Source: Galerina marginata
Lineage: Eukaryota; Basidiomycota; Agaricomycetes; Agaricales; Galerinaceae
Length of the DNA: 64,000 bases
Direction: 5' to 3'
NCBI GenBank assembly: GCA_023014335.1
Contig: JAECYW010000024.1
Location: 186,001 to 250,000 of the forward strand
Shown here: piece after piece, positions 48,919 through 64,000 of the stretch
Layout: the number at the start of each line of letters is the position of its first letter
Position numbering within the stretch: position 1 is the stretch's first letter
Translations under genes and position numbers: made by a program
The notes under the pieces: model-generated
What the model was told of the DNA's origin: nothing
Database searches by the model: none
What the model saw: only the letters and a program-made list of their open reading frames with translations

Positions 48919-51900
48919 TCAATTTCGAAGAAAATCGGATGGAGAGTACTGGAGGAAATCGACGATGGCATGGTTCATTTGACGTACAAGCTGGGGGGCA
49001 GCTCCAGTGAGTTTGATTTTTTTTCGCCATTTGAGTCTCGCAAGTGGTTGACGAGATGCGCTCCTGGCCTGCTTAAGCCGACGAATAAACCAAGATTCAC
49101 ATTCGGGATTCCAATGTCCGACATTGAGGCCGGAGACAAGCCAGGCTTGCTCGGCCGGGAACCAGGAGTAGTAACCGACTTGATCTGAAGAAAAGGTGGT
49201 GAATAACAACAAAAAAGGAAAAAACCTGAAAATCGCACTTCTTGTTCCAGTAGCTTGCATGTAGGTTCCAACGAGGAAGTCTCTGACTTCCAGGGACAAG
49301 CCGTCATCCACATAGATCTCGTCGCCACACAGAAAAACATCTTGATTGCCCTGAAGCGCATCCTGAGAAGGGCCAGCGAGGATAGCAGAGACAGGGATGG
49401 CTTCTCTACCGAGACGTGCAATGACACCACCAATGGAGAGGGCACGACGGGCATTGCAGCGACTATCAAAATATCTGTCCCTGACGTCAGCATAATGCGC
49501 ATAGTCCGCTGCATCATAAATGTAGTTGGCCGGACGCTTTCCAAGTGGGCTTCTCCAAGAAGAAATTCTCGGACGAGGGGGTCGCGATGCCAATCGCTGA
49601 AGAGTGCGGAATTCTATCCCATGCACCACAAGGTATTCGGCCAGCTCATATGGATCAGGGCCAAATCCCCGACGTACACATTCGAGGGCAATCTGTGGTG
49701 ATACCGCAAGAATCCAAGGAGGGCACTTCTTGGGTTCAAGCCCGCGAGGATGAAGCAGGCAGTGAACCTTTTGGTCAAGGTGAACTACCTGGAGGCGAAA
49801 ATGAGAGCTGAGCATTTTACCGATCGACTCGAAATTCCCTGGATTGATATCCCAATAGTGAGGAGGGATTTCGTGAAATGGGGTCCTGGCAGTGATCAGC
49901 AAGTTAAGGAAGTCTTGTATGCTTTGCCTGTTTCGCCGAGACCCTGAATCCAGGTGCTGGCCACCCACGGCACGGCACACGTTCGTCCAATTCTTGATGA
50001 CCACCGGTATCACTTTGCCCGTGTAGTCCGAGCTATCATAGGAGTACCCATAGCGGTAATACACTAGGTCCTCTATAAATTCGTCCTCTGGCGGACATTC
50101 CTCGAGTTCGACGATGGGAAGGCGATTCAGGACATCTTGCTTTGAAAGTTCGAACAATTCATCAGATTCCATCTCGACGTCCTCCTTACGACTCTGCCTC
50201 AGTATCACCGGCGTCTCGTCGTCTGAGTCTGAGTCTTCATCCCCAGTGTCCATCCCCTCGTCCAGCATCTCAGCGTCTGGGGCTCTGTCCCCAATATCCA
50301 TCTTGTCGTCGTCGTCTTCCACTACAGGAAGTCGTCCACGCCCAACTGGCGAAGACGGCAATTGCAGCAGATTAGGCTGAGGGGGGGAGGAGAGTTGACG
50401 AGGTATCTGGCGAGGAGGGGACAGCTCACGAGGAAGTGAAGGGTCGGGAGGAGGAGACCTGCGAGGAGAAGGCTGACAAATGGGCGACAACTGGCGAGGA
50501 GGAGGCGACGGCTGGCGAGGAGGAGGCGACGGCTGGCGAGGAGGAGGCGACGGCTGGCGAGGAGGAGAAGGCTGGCGATGAGGAGAAGACTGGCGAGGGG
50601 GAGAAGGCTGACAAGGAGAAGGCTGGCAAGGAAGCGAGGGCTGAAGAAGAGGTGGTGGCTCGCGAGCAGGCTGACGAAGGGACGACTGGTTGTGAGCGGG
50701 CGAAGGCCGACGAACAGGCGACGGCTTGCGAGCAGGCGAAGGCTGACGAAGAGGCGATGGCTCGCGAGCAGGCGAAGGTCGACGACAAGGTGATGGCTTC
50801 CGACGACGCGACGAACGAGGTCCGAAAATGTCTGAATTGTCGTCAGAGTCGGACTGTGACTCAACTGGTTCCTCAAAGTCAGAACATAAGTCAAACTCGT
50901 CTTCGAATGAGTTATACTTGATTTCTCTTGACGAGTAGTCTTCCCAGACAAGCCCAATCTTATTGCGAAGAATTGCTTCTCTTATGCGAAAGCCCTTCGC
51001 GCCTCTTTCGACCCATCTATAGGCCCTGGGACCTTTTTTCGACGGGGTTTCCTTCTTCAGATTCTTAGTTTGGCGTGCTATACGACTCCGCTTGGCTTGG
51101 ATCGTTTCTGTCGCCTCGATTTTCTTGGCTTCAGCAGCCCGCCTAGCAAAGAAAGCCTCCATGGTTTCACCCGGCTTCTGGCCACTATGAGGTTCAACTG
51201 GTGGGAATCCTGGTGGTATTACCGGTGGTGGAGGCACTGGAGGCAGTGGTGCACGTGGATCTCTAACAGTTGGATTCGGTTTGAAGTGGGAAGCCCAGGT
51301 GCCAGCAACATCGGCGAAGGGTTTGGTGCCCCAGTAAAAGTATAGAGGAAGTTTCAGCTTGATCATGTAAGGAATCAAATTGCGCCATCGGCATTGAGGG
51401 ATATCAATGATGGCTCCATTACGAGCGACGGTATGATCGAATACTCCAACCCCGGACTCTTCGAGTTCTGCTGCCCACGCGGGATGAGGCTTCGACCTGG
51501 AAGCTTCGAGCAAGTCGGCGACGGTTTGAGGGGCCCAAGAATCTCCACAAGCCTGAAGTAGGCCGATCAAAAAAGAGGTGTAGGCCATGTACAGGACAAA
51601 TCCAGCAATTGAGTCCTTGGCCACAGCCAAGGCAGCCTCCTTAGTTTTCTGCGTGTCAAAGTACCCGTACGCACTAGGCTTCTTTGGGGGGGTCCACAAG
51701 CATTTAATCTCAGGATGCTTCTCCTTGAAAAGTGTCAGGAGGGCATCGGCCGTGGAGTATAACGTTCGCTCGAATACTTTCCACTCCTTCCCGGTGTCGT
51801 GCGGGAGGTGCCATCCGACGCTACCTTTCACGAGCCTGTGAGAATCAAAGTTTGCGAATCGCGACATAAGGGGACCGATTAAGGGCGATGTGGGAACGAA

Positions 51901-52168
51901 AGGGAGGTACGGATATCTGTCGTCAGCCCAATAGTGAAAGCACATATTGACAGGACGAGGCTCCTGGGCAAGTGGGTCGCGAGGAGGGAGGGGCAACCTG
52001 AGGGCATCCATTGTGGGGGACGTGTACCGATCGTTCTCGACAAAAAAATCAGCAGAGCGACTGGAATACAGGTGATAGTATTCCAGAGGCTTGGCTTCAT
52101 CGTAAAAGGCTGAAAAAAGGTTATAAGACGGTGTCACTGAACAAAATGATCGTGGTATACTTACACAT
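48919..52168 (-). CDS. 1046-residue lineage-specific Pro/Ser-rich protein
   Basis: Minus-strand exons 52168-52165, 52109-49239 and 49184-48919. Exon 1 is only ATG plus one base (context CCACCATGT), then a 55-nt GTAAGT...TTTTCAG intron. The second intron (54 nt, GTGCGA...TTCAG) removes an otherwise open stretch of low-complexity Phe/Leu codons. The N-terminal 350 residues are globular, with many aromatic residues (WADDRYPYLPFVP, GWHLPHDTGKEWKVFERTL). A lysine-rich stretch, RGAKGFRIREA and an acidic segment follow. Then come about 150 residues of PSP-R/C-RQP repeats and acidic blocks, and a C-terminal domain of about 350 residues ending near MNHAIVDFLQY. The layout matches a large uncharacterised protein that agaric genomes carry in several copies. 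No catalytic motif is recognised. Confidence 0.8.
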
Positions 52169-52238
52169 GGTGGACTGGAGCAGTAGCAGAAAGTTCGGCG
52201 CGTAGGAGATCGAGCTGGGACAACAGGCGATGCTTGAA

Positions 52239-52520
52239 ACGCGATCTCAGTGTGTCCAAACACAAAAGAGAGGGCGGCAGGGAAGTCTCCAAAGGTTGAA
52301 ACACGGCCAACGCGATCTCAGTGTGTACAAACACAAAAGAGAGGCGGCAGGCAGCTGGCTAAGCGCGATCTCAGTGTGTCCAAACACAAAAGAGAGGGCG
52401 ATGGGGCTGCCGGCAACACTCCAGATGGGAAAGAGAGGGCGGCAGGCGTTGGCGAAGCGCGATCTCAGTGTGTACCAACACAAAAGAGAGGGCGATGTGG
52501 CTGTCAGCAACACTCCAGAT
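52239..52520. repeat. minisatellite upstream of the 1046-residue gene
   Basis: Four copies of GCGATCTCAGTGTGT followed by CAAACACAAAAGAGAG-GCG occur at about 52240, 52310, 52368 and 52459. A longer companion (CAACACTCCAGATGGGAA) is present twice. The array lies directly upstream of the 52168 start codon. Confidence 0.7.
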
Positions 52521-59437: not shown

Positions 59438-59653
59438 ATGTACGAACGCCAGGAAGACCCCATGGATGACCGTCAGGAAGACCCAATGGAGGACCCAATG
59501 GAGGACCAAGACGACGACCATAACTTGAACGTTTCTCGGGCAGGAAGCGTGTATCTTGACGCTGAAGACCATAACTCGAACGCATCTCGGGCAGGAAGCG
59601 TGTATCTTGACGCTGACGACCATAACTCGAACGCCTCTCGGGCAGAAAGCGTG

Positions 59654-59660
59654 TGTCTTG
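59654..59660 (+). repeat. left target-site duplication TGTCTTG
   Basis: TGTCTTG directly precedes the element and recurs directly after it at 62750-62756. The duplication could be read as 8 or 9 bp because the element end itself is GTG. Confidence 0.75.
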
Positions 59661-60074
59661 CACATAGGACAGTGCTAAAAATACATACTGTACGGGAATA
59701 CCCCGATCAACGAAGTAGACGTAATATACGGGTTCAGTCTGACAAACCAATTTTGCTACGAAGTCGACGGGTTCCATGGTCCGATCGGAATGGCTACGAT
59801 GTAGCCGTAGGGTATGGTCCGATTGGATTTTGCTTTTCACCTAGCGGAGACCGCAATTTTTTTTGCACCTCCAAAAAATGGCATTTCGGGGCCCATTGGA
59901 AAATTGTCAGTCTGTCGGGCTGCCGGGTTTGCTCAGGATTTTTTAGTGGGTTTCAATTACATCAATAATCAATACAATTACAGTGCAGTAGGTCTGAAAA
60001 TTGATCAGCATTTTGGGGGGGGGGGGGGGGGTACATTGGAATGCTTGCAGGGGGCCGACAAATTGAAAGTGAAA

Positions 60075-60530
60075 GGTCGGCCTCCACTGGGTGAATGATA
60101 ATATTTGCGGAGCCCGCAAAATTGAAATAGAATGTCGGCCTCCGCTAGGTGAATGATAATATTTGCGGTTCCCGCAAATTGAAAATAGAATGTCGGCTTC
60201 CGCTAGGTGAATAATAATATTTGCGGAGCCCACAAAATTGAAAATAGAATGTCGGCCTCCACTGGGTAAATGATAATATTTGCGGAGCCCGCAAGATTGA
60301 AAATAGGATGTCGGCCTCCGCTGCATGAATAATAATAGTTGCGGAGCCCGCAAAATTGAAAGTAGAACATCGGCCTCCGCTGTATGAATAATAATTGTTG
60401 CGGAGCCCGCAAAATTGAAAAATAGAACGTTGGCCTCCACTGAGCGAGCTATAATATTTGCGGAGCCCTGAAAAATTGAAACAACATGTCGGCCTTCACT
60501 GGGTGAGTGATAATATCTATGGAGGACCGC
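60075..60530 (+). repeat. tandem units of about 58 bp in the left arm
   Basis: GTCGGCCTCCGCTAGGTGAA followed by TGATAATATTTGCGGAGCCC and GCAAAATTGAAAATAGAAT recurs about seven to eight times with small changes. The long open frames seen here are by-products of the periodicity. Confidence 0.75.
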
Positions 60531-61829
60531 AATATGGAAAATAAAATGTTGGCCTCCACTTGGTGGATTATAATACCCGTAATATCCATCCCAATTGAAA
60601 ATAGGGTCTTGGTCTTGGGCTGGGTTACATCTAATATTTGCGGAGCCCCGGAAAATGAAAAATGGAATGGCGGGCTCCGCATATTGTAATCTGTGCGGGG
60701 CCCAAAAACTCGAAATGGTATCATAGTATGGAAATAAATTGGTACTACCTGAATAACATTCATCTGCAGTGTTTTTCAAAGTCTCAAATGTGGATATAGG
60801 CTGGTCATTTCATTTAGTGTACTATAGCAATATTCCACAGGGGTTTACACAACTTGTGGAGAACTCAAGAGGAAAATAATGGGTGAGGAGGAGGAAGAGG
60901 CCAAATCACTAATATGATATTTGTATCCACTTACTTCCTCAATATCATGTCCCCTACTCACTTTTATGCCATCCTCTATTACTGGATAATGCTAAAGGCA
61001 CTCCCAGGTATCTATAAATCTTACCAGCCGTAGAAAAACTGAATTACTTATATCACAACTTGGAACCTCCCATTTATGATACAAGACATTGTCCTACTCT
61101 GCCTCCTCATGGTTTATTTTCTTTTGAGGTCTCTAGAATTTGTTTAAGCCACTTTAAAATCATTCTACAGTAGACTAAAGTGAATTAGTAGCTTCTGTTC
61201 ATGTTCTAAGACCTTGAAATACAGTTGGTATTGACATTATGCAGTCCCAAAGGCTGAATTCAGCTTCAATTTGGCCAAACTCCATAGTTAATGCAATTCA
61301 CCCACAAGAAAACAATGTACTTCAGAGAGTCTGCATGGGGTCATGTAAGGGAAGCAATGGGTATACATATGGGTTGCAATCCACACACCTGTGACCCTCA
61401 AAACGAGCCCAAGGACTCAATTTTTGGTGGAGAATTGAATGAGATATACCTAATTTTGGGAAAATCATCGCAATTGGTTGTATCTTACTCATTTCTCCAT
61501 TGCTTTTGACGTTCTGGGAGCTGCTTTGAAGGATAAACTGTGCAGTTTGCGGGGTTAGGTACTGGCAAGTACAGATTCGGGTAAGGGCCCAGACACCTGT
61601 GGGTTAGTAGTTACCGATTTATTTCCATACTATGATACCATTTCGAGTTTTTGGGCCCCGCACAGATTACAATATGCAGAGCCCGCCATTCCATTTTTCA
61701 TTTTCCGGGGCTCCGCAAATATTAGATGTAACCCAGCCCAAGACCAAGACCCTATTTTCAATTGGGATGGATATTACGGGTATTATAATCCACCAAGTGG
61801 AGGCCAACATTTTATTTTCCATATTGCGG

Positions 61830-62345
61830 TCCTCCATAGATATTATCACTCACCCAGTGAAGGCCGACATGTTGTTTCAATTTTTCAGGGCTCTGCAAAT
61901 ATTATAGCTCACTCAGTGGAGGCCAACGTTCTATTTTTCAATTTTGCGGGCTCCGCAACAATTATTATTCATACAGCGGAGGCCGATGTTCTACTTTCAA
62001 TTTTGCGGGCTCCGCAACTATTATTATTCATGCAGCGGAGGCCGACATCCTATTTTCAATCTTGCGGGCTCCGCAAATATTATCATTTACCCAGTGGAGG
62101 CCGACATTCTATTTTCAATTTTGCGGGCTCCGCAAATATTATTATTCACCTAGCGGAAGCCGACATTCTATTTTCAATTTGCGGGAACTGCAAATATTAT
62201 CATTCACCTAGCGGAGGCCGACATTCTATTTCAATTTTGCGGGCTCCGCAAATATTATCATTCACCTAGCGGAGGCCGACATTCTATTTCAATTTTGCGG
62301 GCTCCGCAAATATTATCATTCACCCAGTGGAGGCCGACCTTTCAC
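61830..62345 (-). repeat. tandem units of about 58 bp in the right arm
   Basis: Reverse-complement counterpart of the left-arm array with one additional unit near 62220-62280, which accounts for most of the arm length difference. Confidence 0.75.
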
Positions 62346-62749
62346 TTTCAATTTGTCGGCCCCCTGCAAGCATTCCAATGTACCCCCCCCCCAAAAAAAT
62401 GCTGATCAATTTTCAGACCTACTGCACTGTAATTGTATTGATTATTGATGTAATTGAAACCCACTAAAAAATCCTGAGCAAACCCGGCAGCCCGACAGAC
62501 TGACAATTTTCCAATGGGCCCCGAAATGCCATTTTTTGGAGGTGCAAAAAAAATTGCGGTCTCCGCTAGGTGAAAAGCAAAATCCAATCGGGCCATACCC
62601 TACGGCTACATCGTAGCCATTCCGATCGGACCATGGAACCCGTCGACTTCGTAGCAAAATTGGTTTGTCAGACTGAACCCGTATATTACGTCTACTTCGT
62701 TGATCGGGGTATTCCCGTACAGTATGTATTTTTAGCACTGTCCTATGTG

Positions 62750-62756
62750 TGTCTTG
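62750..62756 (+). repeat. right target-site duplication TGTCTTG
   Basis: Direct copy of 59654-59660 on the other side of the element. Confidence 0.75.
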
Positions 62757-64000
62757 ACCCCGATGATAACTCTGGAAACGACCCCATGAGTGCCCAAACG
62801 ACACCTCGACCCCTTCATAGTAAACTCCCCACCAACCCAGCTGCCTTTGCCCTTTCCTCTGGCAGGAATGGCCCCAGGCACCCAATCCATTCCCAAGTGC
62901 CAACAACTTCTCATTTTGGCGTATCCTCCTTCTTGGGCCCACCAGACTCGATCCGCGCAAGATCTACAGATCCGCGCACTCGCCCTGGGCCGAGTACGTT
63001 CTCAGATGCCTTCAGCAGCGGGCTTCCCCGTCTGGATGCCTTCAGCAGCGGGCTTCCCCGTCTGGGTCTCATAACGCGACACCACCGTGATATCGACATG
63101 GACATGGTACTCGCCAATCCTTGGGAAGAGTCCGTTCTCGGTAAGCGCGTCGAGCACGATAGGCCTCCGTTGTTTCTACCAGATCCGGATTCTCCACTGA
63201 ATCAAACCAACGCCTTGGTTACGCCGGTAAGCCGCTGTAAAGGACCTAACAACCTGTCTGGCTGACCTCGAACACCTATAGACTCCAAAGCGTCCAAAGA
63301 TATTCAAAGAGCTAGAATCTGAGCCGATTTATCCACCTCCCACACGCAGAGTTCGCCAGGCCAATGCGACTCTGGTGAAGATGAATTCAAACTATATGAC
63401 GGAGCTGAATAACCACTTCGATCCGACAGGAACCTTTCAGAATGCTTTACTGGCAACATTCAGGGCGGACGCCGATTCAATGCTAAACACCGTTCAGCGA
63501 GAGCATGAACAGCGCATGCGGAAGCTGGAACATGATTACGAGGTTAGGGAGAGGGATTTGGAGGCAAAGGCAAAGGAGTTCCATGCGGAGGCGGAGAGGT
63601 TGAAACGCGAATCGGAGGCGAAGATGGAAGTGGAGCAGCAGCAACAGCAGGTATCGAGGAGGGAACAGCAGGTGGGCCAATGTTGATCGTTCTGTAAGGG
63701 TCTTGTTGATAAATCCATTTGCAAGGAGAGAGACTTGCGTGGTGCACAAGAGCTCGAAAAGGCGAAGGCCCTCATTTTTCGACAGGTCGAAGAGGCGAAG
63801 GAGCGAGTTGCTCAAGAGCTCGAAGAGGCGAAGGCGAAGGTACGCGTGATTTCCAACTGAGGTCGTTACCGACCCCATTCAAACTTCTCGCAGAACGAAG
63901 ACCAAGAAAGGAGACGCGTAGAATTGGAGCAAGAAATTGAAGAGATCCGGCGCGCAAAGCGTCAGACAGAAAAGTTATTGACTGATAGATTGGAAGAGCT

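Follow-up and report, generated by a model that had tools for sequence, protein, structure and literature searches.

A stretch of 64,000 nucleotides from Galerina marginata (the window, whose first letter is position 1 below) contains a gene whose first exon is broken, inside a coding repeat, by about 3.1 kb of DNA with inverted ends. The locus raises the questions of what this DNA is, whether it arrived by transposition and which enzyme could have moved it.

Structure of the inserted element

The insert and its parts are located as follows.

59661..62749, no strand: whole inserted element, 3,089 bp, without a KDZ match inside
59654..59660, +: left TGTCTTG of the 7-bp target duplication
62750..62756, +: right TGTCTTG of the 7-bp target duplication
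59661..60744, +: left arm, 1,084 bp
61612..62749, -: right arm, 1,138 bp
59755..59827, +: 35-bp stretch in two diverged copies (71%), 38 bp apart
60060..60575, +: left array, approximately 8.7 units, each 58-60 bp long, in which cores resembling GCGGAGCCCG and CGGCCTCCG face in opposite directions
61781..62354, -: right array, approximately 9.7 units of the same repeat
62193..62308, -: a 58-bp unit and its identical neighbour, one of the two being an extra unit absent from the left arm
60745..61611, no strand: interior, 867 bp
61345..61606, +: degenerate (approximately 73%) relative of a dispersed palindromic repeat of about 320 bp, inside the interior

The initial annotation had described a foldback-like element with identical, inward-reading ends and a TGTCTTG on either side, and both observations are borne out. 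The 15-bp end CACATAGGACAGTGC is present at 59661-59675 (+) and 62735-62749 (-), no further site exists in the window at up to two mismatches, and two such sites occur in none of 100 shuffles used as a control. The window copy by itself would allow a direct repeat of anything from 7 to 10 bp, since GTGTGTCTTG is present twice and shares its GTG with the arm end; the 13 other copies of the family described below fix the duplication at 7 bp.

Over 1,080 aligned columns the two arms differ by nine substitutions, and their alignment has two gaps, one of four bases in a poly-G tract and one of 58 bases, which corresponds to the extra tandem unit of the right arm: the left arm has one unit where the right arm has two successive identical units. 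The arrays lie inside the arms, and the whole has the shape of a foldback DNA transposon, as had been proposed. The short repeat at 59755..59827 has counterparts in several relatives, which carry a 38-bp repeat at a comparable distance from the end (82-166 bp in the five other short copies), the window element having a diverged form of it. In the interior, no other genome match is reported for the first two thirds in a search that skipped simple and very common words, and the last third (approximately 61331-61606) has reported relatives elsewhere in the genome, in the form of the palindromic repeat listed above. An Rfam scan of the window at gathering scores gives no match.

The host gene and its empty site

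The interrupted gene is laid out as follows.

59438..59660, +: exon 1, first part, with 74 whole codons; a 17-residue repeat is present in 2.8 copies
62757..63226, +: exon 1, continuation
63282..63671, +: exon 2
63726..63839, +: exon 3
63894..64000, +: exon 4, which continues beyond the window end

When the element and one TGTCTTG are removed, exon 1 can be read from the ATG at 59438 through 231 codons without a stop, and the three following introns (63227-63281, 63672-63725 and 63840-63893; 54-55 bp, GT..AG) keep the frame, in agreement with the earlier statements that the host frame reads through the undone insertion and that splice sites and frames beyond it are intact.

The empty site, which had been deduced from the window itself, exists as real sequence elsewhere in the genome. 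A search with the first 436 residues of the host protein yields 45 genome matches; the gene is a member of a dispersed multi-copy family, and the insertion has therefore not broken a unique gene. The junction (residues 74/75) is uninterrupted in all eight paralogues that match across it, two on contig C12, two on C16 and four on C14 (matches that stop short of the junction were left out), and the only interrupted place is that of the window. Four of the eight were aligned, namely both C12 copies, one C16 copy and the C14 copy near the contig start, and all four span the site. The C12 and C16 paralogues, approximately 88% identical to the host gene by BLAST with gaps elsewhere in the repeat region, contain the empty site GTGTGTCTTGACC with a single TGTCTTG (letters from one copy each), and the two C12 paralogues are 100% identical to each other over 2,344 bp. 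The closest paralogue, at the start of C14, is empty: its gap-free alignment through the site covers 1,033 bp, with 98.5% identity. Since this copy is empty and the paralogues are uninterrupted, the empty state is most simply read as the older one, which would place the insertion after the separation of the C14 and C17 copies. The recent movement claimed in the initial annotation thus stands as a relatively recent insertion, the word being relative only.

The scoring of 7,997 candidates gives the host protein no database relative at E <= 0.001, and its four exon pieces have no Pfam match at E <= 0.01. In the closest paralogue (C14:1189-5600), another insert, unlike this one and about 1 kb long, lies 53 bp downstream of the site discussed here, and two copies of the host gene family, that of the window and that of C14, have been struck by different inserts. 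Several paralogues lie less than 70 kb from a contig end, some form inverted pairs 17-59 kb apart (C12:4367952/4426652, C16:1151567/1175230 and C14:814237/831103), and 3.4 kb of one C12 paralogue match a C16 copy at 99.9% identity; the paralogue unit may itself be subtelomeric or mobile. Elsewhere in the window, 48922-52317 (-) is an open stretch of 1,132 codons with no Pfam match at E <= 0.01.

A family of long and short copies

The assembly searched comprises 69.3 Mb in 43 contigs. The first 400 bp of the element give 23 matches, which correspond to 11 two-ended copies, including that of the window, and one single end; a search with CACATRGGACAGT adds three more two-ended copies, for a total of 14. 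The 33 exact CACATRGGACAGT sites consist of the 28 ends of these copies, two single family ends (C5:2042393 and C40:505128) and three sites that diverge just past the 13 bases. With one mismatch allowed, 110 sites (55 + 55) are found against 99 (41 + 58) for the reversed control, and only the exact 33 were used.

Identical 7-bp duplications flank all 14 two-ended copies (11 + 3, all re-read), and the termini are CACATRGGAC..GTCCYATGTG in each, of the 5'-CA..TG-3' type. CACATA is unique to the window element, the 31 other exact sites reading CACATG. The genome thus contains 13 further family copies with 7-bp duplications, but the exact end CACATAGGACAGT is present only at the window locus. The window subfamily is single-copy in the assembly, and its best family-level identity is 86%, over the first 173-174 bp, to four long copies.

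Eight copies are long (13,489, 13,520, 13,865, 13,880, 14,003, 14,672, 19,129 and 45,939 bp) and six, including the window element, are short (3,089, 3,154, 3,155, 3,155, 3,344 and 5,247 bp). Among the at least 135 genome matches listed for the KDZ transposase domain (PF18758), a match is present in 8/8 copies of at least 13.5 kb and in 0/6 copies of at most 5.2 kb. The 45.9-kb copy (C5:1456205-1502143) contains a nested 3,154-bp foldback copy, each with its own 7-bp duplication.

When the terminal 145 bp are set against those of three long copies, the window element comes closest to the copies on C42 and C20 (86.2%), and the other short copies come closest to C39:3742038 (91.7-93.8%); these differing nearest long copies tie the foldback forms to at least two subfamilies. 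A preference for palindromic targets was considered and rejected: the 14 sites of 23 bp contain 41 complementary pairs out of 154 against a shuffle mean of 37.9, a value reached in 615 of 2,000 shuffles, and the 14 targets have neither a clear common motif nor a palindromic bias.

Repeat units in the arms

The arms measure 702-1,138 bp in the six short copies and 487-580 bp in the five long copies measured. All six short copies contain arrays of 47-60-bp units (58-60 bp in the window element, mainly 47-48 bp in the others), and TRF reports a tandem repeat in the arms of two of the five long copies, 2.8 units of 52 bp in that on C20 and 2.2 units of a different, 38-bp repeat in C39:3742038. The consensus units of the two groups of short copies have TTGCGGAGCCCG and TCGGCCTCC in common, a likeness equalled in none of 2,000 shuffles, and the groups share this core but differ in much of the spacer. 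Likeness of the units to the C20 arm repeat is weak, with 45 and 49 of 2,000 shuffles as good.

All 18 occurrences of the motif GCGGAGSCCG in the window fall within the element, the other 60,911 bases having none; the 18 sit in tandem repeats and are hence not independent. Within an arm, 12 of the 16 steps between neighbouring occurrences are 29-30 bp with a switch of orientation. A special role of the motif is argued against by its scarcity in the other short copies, which have the exact form only 0-3 times each and the looser GCGGWGSCCG 3-6 times, and by the abundance of the looser form in a coding repeat of the C20 copy. The paired core is a candidate binding site for the KDZ transposase.

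The strongest competing view is that the arrays have no function, that they are by-products of slippage or gene conversion such as any inverted repeat would produce, and that the terminal bases suffice for the element to move. The extra, identical unit of the right arm does show slippage or unequal copying, the three long copies in whose arms TRF finds no array indicate that movement needs no arrays, and a coding repeat accounts for most of the 24 looser motifs in the right piece of the C20 copy. Against this view, arrays are present in every short copy of both groups, and the groups have the unit core in common, unlike much of the spacer. An absence of function has a sizeable chance of being correct, somewhat short of even.

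Assignment of the transposase

Nine ORFs of two long copies were scanned with Pfam (a tenth ORF belongs to the flank), and KDZ matches (E 2.7e-36 and 3.7e-42) and CxC2 matches (E 6.5e-23 and 7.1e-22) are found, with no P-type match. The KDZ match of three long copies (C42, C39:3528216 and C5) contains a TAG, perhaps in an intron or as damage. The best named relative is a Galerina marginata protein with 66% identity over 86% of the query.

The TET/JBP matches at C3:1340143, C10:919628 and C39:268759 lie 3.6-4.4 kb from KDZ matches, as in the Kyakuja elements of other mushrooms. The KDZ domains of the two long copies are 47-58% identical to these three TET-linked KDZ domains and 26-29% identical to three other KDZ domains. 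In a tree of KDZ domains that includes no named Kyakuja, Dileera or Zisupton reference and in which 6 of 12 inner branches are open, the long copies are likewise nearer to the TET-linked domains. Of the 18 TET/JBP matches in the genome, none is inside the 14 family copies.

According to the available text of Kojima (PMC12730594), Kyakuja elements have 7-bp duplications and CA..TG ends, Zisupton elements have 8-bp duplications, and AG-type TET genes occur in both. The 7-bp duplications in 14/14 copies, the KDZ match in the long members and the CA..TG ends together make a strong case, at the level of sequence, that the family belongs to the KDZ superfamily, and likely to its Kyakuja lineage. The window element is a member only as a non-autonomous relative, having no KDZ match of its own. 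Inverted arms of 487-1,138 bp are present in 11/11 copies measured, unlike the two Kyakuja families of Laccaria bicolor, which the accessible part of the same source describes without inverted repeats, an absence that is not treated as defining the lineage.

Membership in Zisupton or another KDZ lineage is rather unlikely. The open forks and the choice of references in the tree would allow it, as would the AG-type TET genes used as an anchor, since these are found in both Kyakuja and Zisupton; the 8-bp duplications reported for Zisupton (PMC12730594, in the passages available) nevertheless differ from the 7 bp seen at every site here.

The initial annotation had linked the insert to Mutator-like elements. 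Long inverted arms with tandem units do resemble foldback elements and speak for a MULE transposase as the mover, whether of a Mutator-like or of a classical foldback element. MULEs usually make duplications of about 8-11 bp. The duplication length in all 14 copies, together with the KDZ and CxC2 domains in long copies that have the same ends, leads us to reject Mutator membership, and this origin is very improbable. An assembly error, in which mis-joined reads created the inverted repeat, might be suspected from the near-identical arms and the mostly single-copy interior and has a negligible chance of being correct, as the arms differ at nine positions and by one unit, the 7-bp duplication is of the kind seen in 13 other copies, and the paralogues supply the exact empty site of a true insertion.

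Movement and ageing of the foldback copies

Three foldback copies of 3.15 kb are 99.3-100% identical to each other and lie in three different 7-bp targets, and the foldback forms have therefore moved as such.

The two 145-bp ends of one element are 99.3-100% identical in six of the seven element types tested and 95.9% identical in the seventh (C39:3503471, 3,344 bp), whereas ends of different element types are 74-94% identical, except for the pair of the 3,344-bp and 3,155-bp elements at 98.6%. Because identity within an element exceeds that between types, copying between the arms of an element is suggested. The 3,344-bp copy argues against this being a strict rule: its own ends are less alike (95.9%) than its left end and that of its sister copy (98.6%).

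With the poly-G tract left aside, the arms of the window element differ by six substitutions, five of which fall on CpG (P about 4e-5), a share that is lower in three other short copies (3/9, 8/22 and 17/44). The changes in the window copy are as would be expected if its CpG sites had been methylated in the past.

Probable movement in trans of a non-autonomous element

Taken together, these results make it highly probable that the 3,089 bp represent a DNA transposon of foldback shape, without a KDZ match of its own, which was likely placed with a 7-bp duplication into one copy of a multi-copy gene by a Kyakuja-type KDZ transposase predicted in eight larger relatives. The window element is likely a trans-mobilised, non-autonomous Kyakuja-type element whose arms are putative amplified transposase-binding arrays, the function of the arrays being possibly nil.

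The steps of such a movement can be proposed as follows. The predicted transposase of the larger relatives would act on the element in trans, recognising the common terminal 145-170 bp or so, and would cut the target with a 7-bp stagger. The 58-60-bp units, most of which combine a core resembling GCGGAGCCCG with an oppositely oriented one resembling CGGCCTCCG at a distance of about 29 bp, may represent amplified accessory binding sites. The two arms would be kept alike through copying from one to the other, and change in the arms after insertion would consist mainly of CpG transitions and the gain or loss of one unit. The assembly contains no closely related donor, the nearest transposase-bearing copies being 86% identical over only 173-174 bp, and for this reason the use of the relatives' transposase is something that we infer.

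Comparison with known elements

As set out in the available text of PMC12730594, Kyakuja-1_LB and Kyakuja-2_LB of L. bicolor share the 7-bp duplications and CA..TG ends with the present family, whose long relatives carry KDZ and CxC2. The family differs from these elements, which are described without inverted repeats, in its long inverted arms and its short, non-coding foldback members, and TET/JBP is present in 0/14 copies.

Galileo of Drosophila, a member of the P superfamily, is similar in form. According to the portions available of PMC3573991 and PMC4168063, most of its duplications are of 7 bp, its arms are long (about 300 bp to 1.2 kb), its short copies are made up mainly of arms and some of its subfamilies have tandem repeats that differ in number between the arms; these arm repeats have been proposed as secondary transposase-binding sites. 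Galileo differs in having a P-type transposase instead of KDZ and a target consensus, GTANTAC, whereas the 14 sites here have no palindromic preference. KDZ1-KDZ3 of Cryptococcus neoformans (PMC12810828, in part) also have a KDZ transposase, with inverted repeats of 139-241 bp in elements of approximately 9-11 kb that have been shown to move, but they have CxC1 instead of CxC2 and duplications of 8 bp (KDZ1) or 4-8 bp (KDZ2 and KDZ3). With Foldback and Mutator/foldback elements such as Tm1 (PMC3169594, in part), the family has long inverted arms in common; the transposases are different, and the resemblance is one of shape only.

A wider proposal is offered tentatively and is more doubtful than the absence of array function discussed above: foldback parasites without coding capacity may arise repeatedly from KDZ/Kyakuja transposons, and in at least two subfamilies of the present genome such short derivatives would have amplified a paired, alternating accessory KDZ-binding site into long arms that are kept alike, letting the parasites compete for the enzyme. 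They would then be the KDZ counterpart of Galileo, arisen independently, and a Galileo-like form that uses the same 7-bp cut would have been reached in another kingdom and with another transposase superfamily.

Mushroom-forming fungi are rich in KDZ elements, few of which have been described to their ends. Here a single genome makes it possible to fix the boundaries of a family exactly, to find a transposase match in its long members, to see that short foldback members have moved and to read an actual empty site. Additionally, the paired arm core is a testable candidate for KDZ transposase binding, and no such site is described in the available portions of the KDZ literature examined. No foldback or non-autonomous Kyakuja with repeat arrays was found in that literature, covered at the level of titles, abstract openings and selected text, and an earlier description is possible. 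Long inverted arms may also bear on how stable a genome is; chromosomal inversions caused by Galileo have been reported (PMC2775673, in part).

In Marasmius oreades, about half of the DNA elements are KDZ or Plavaka, according to the text available of PMC8290104.

A further KDZ element of the present genome, of 21.4 kb (C4:747586-768946), was considered as an outside control for duplication length and dropped, as its edges, where found, have no target duplication. Its inverted arms, of at least 2,047 bp and 100% identical, start with CACTTCAGTGG, and repeat matches together with the KDZ matches listed point to two more places on C4 that perhaps hold similar elements. The arms of this element contain a more distant relative of the palindromic repeat of about 320 bp found in the interior of the window element. 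That dispersed repeat starts with TTAGGGAAATGCACGGG or nearly so, and one copy of it is 98% identical to each of three others.
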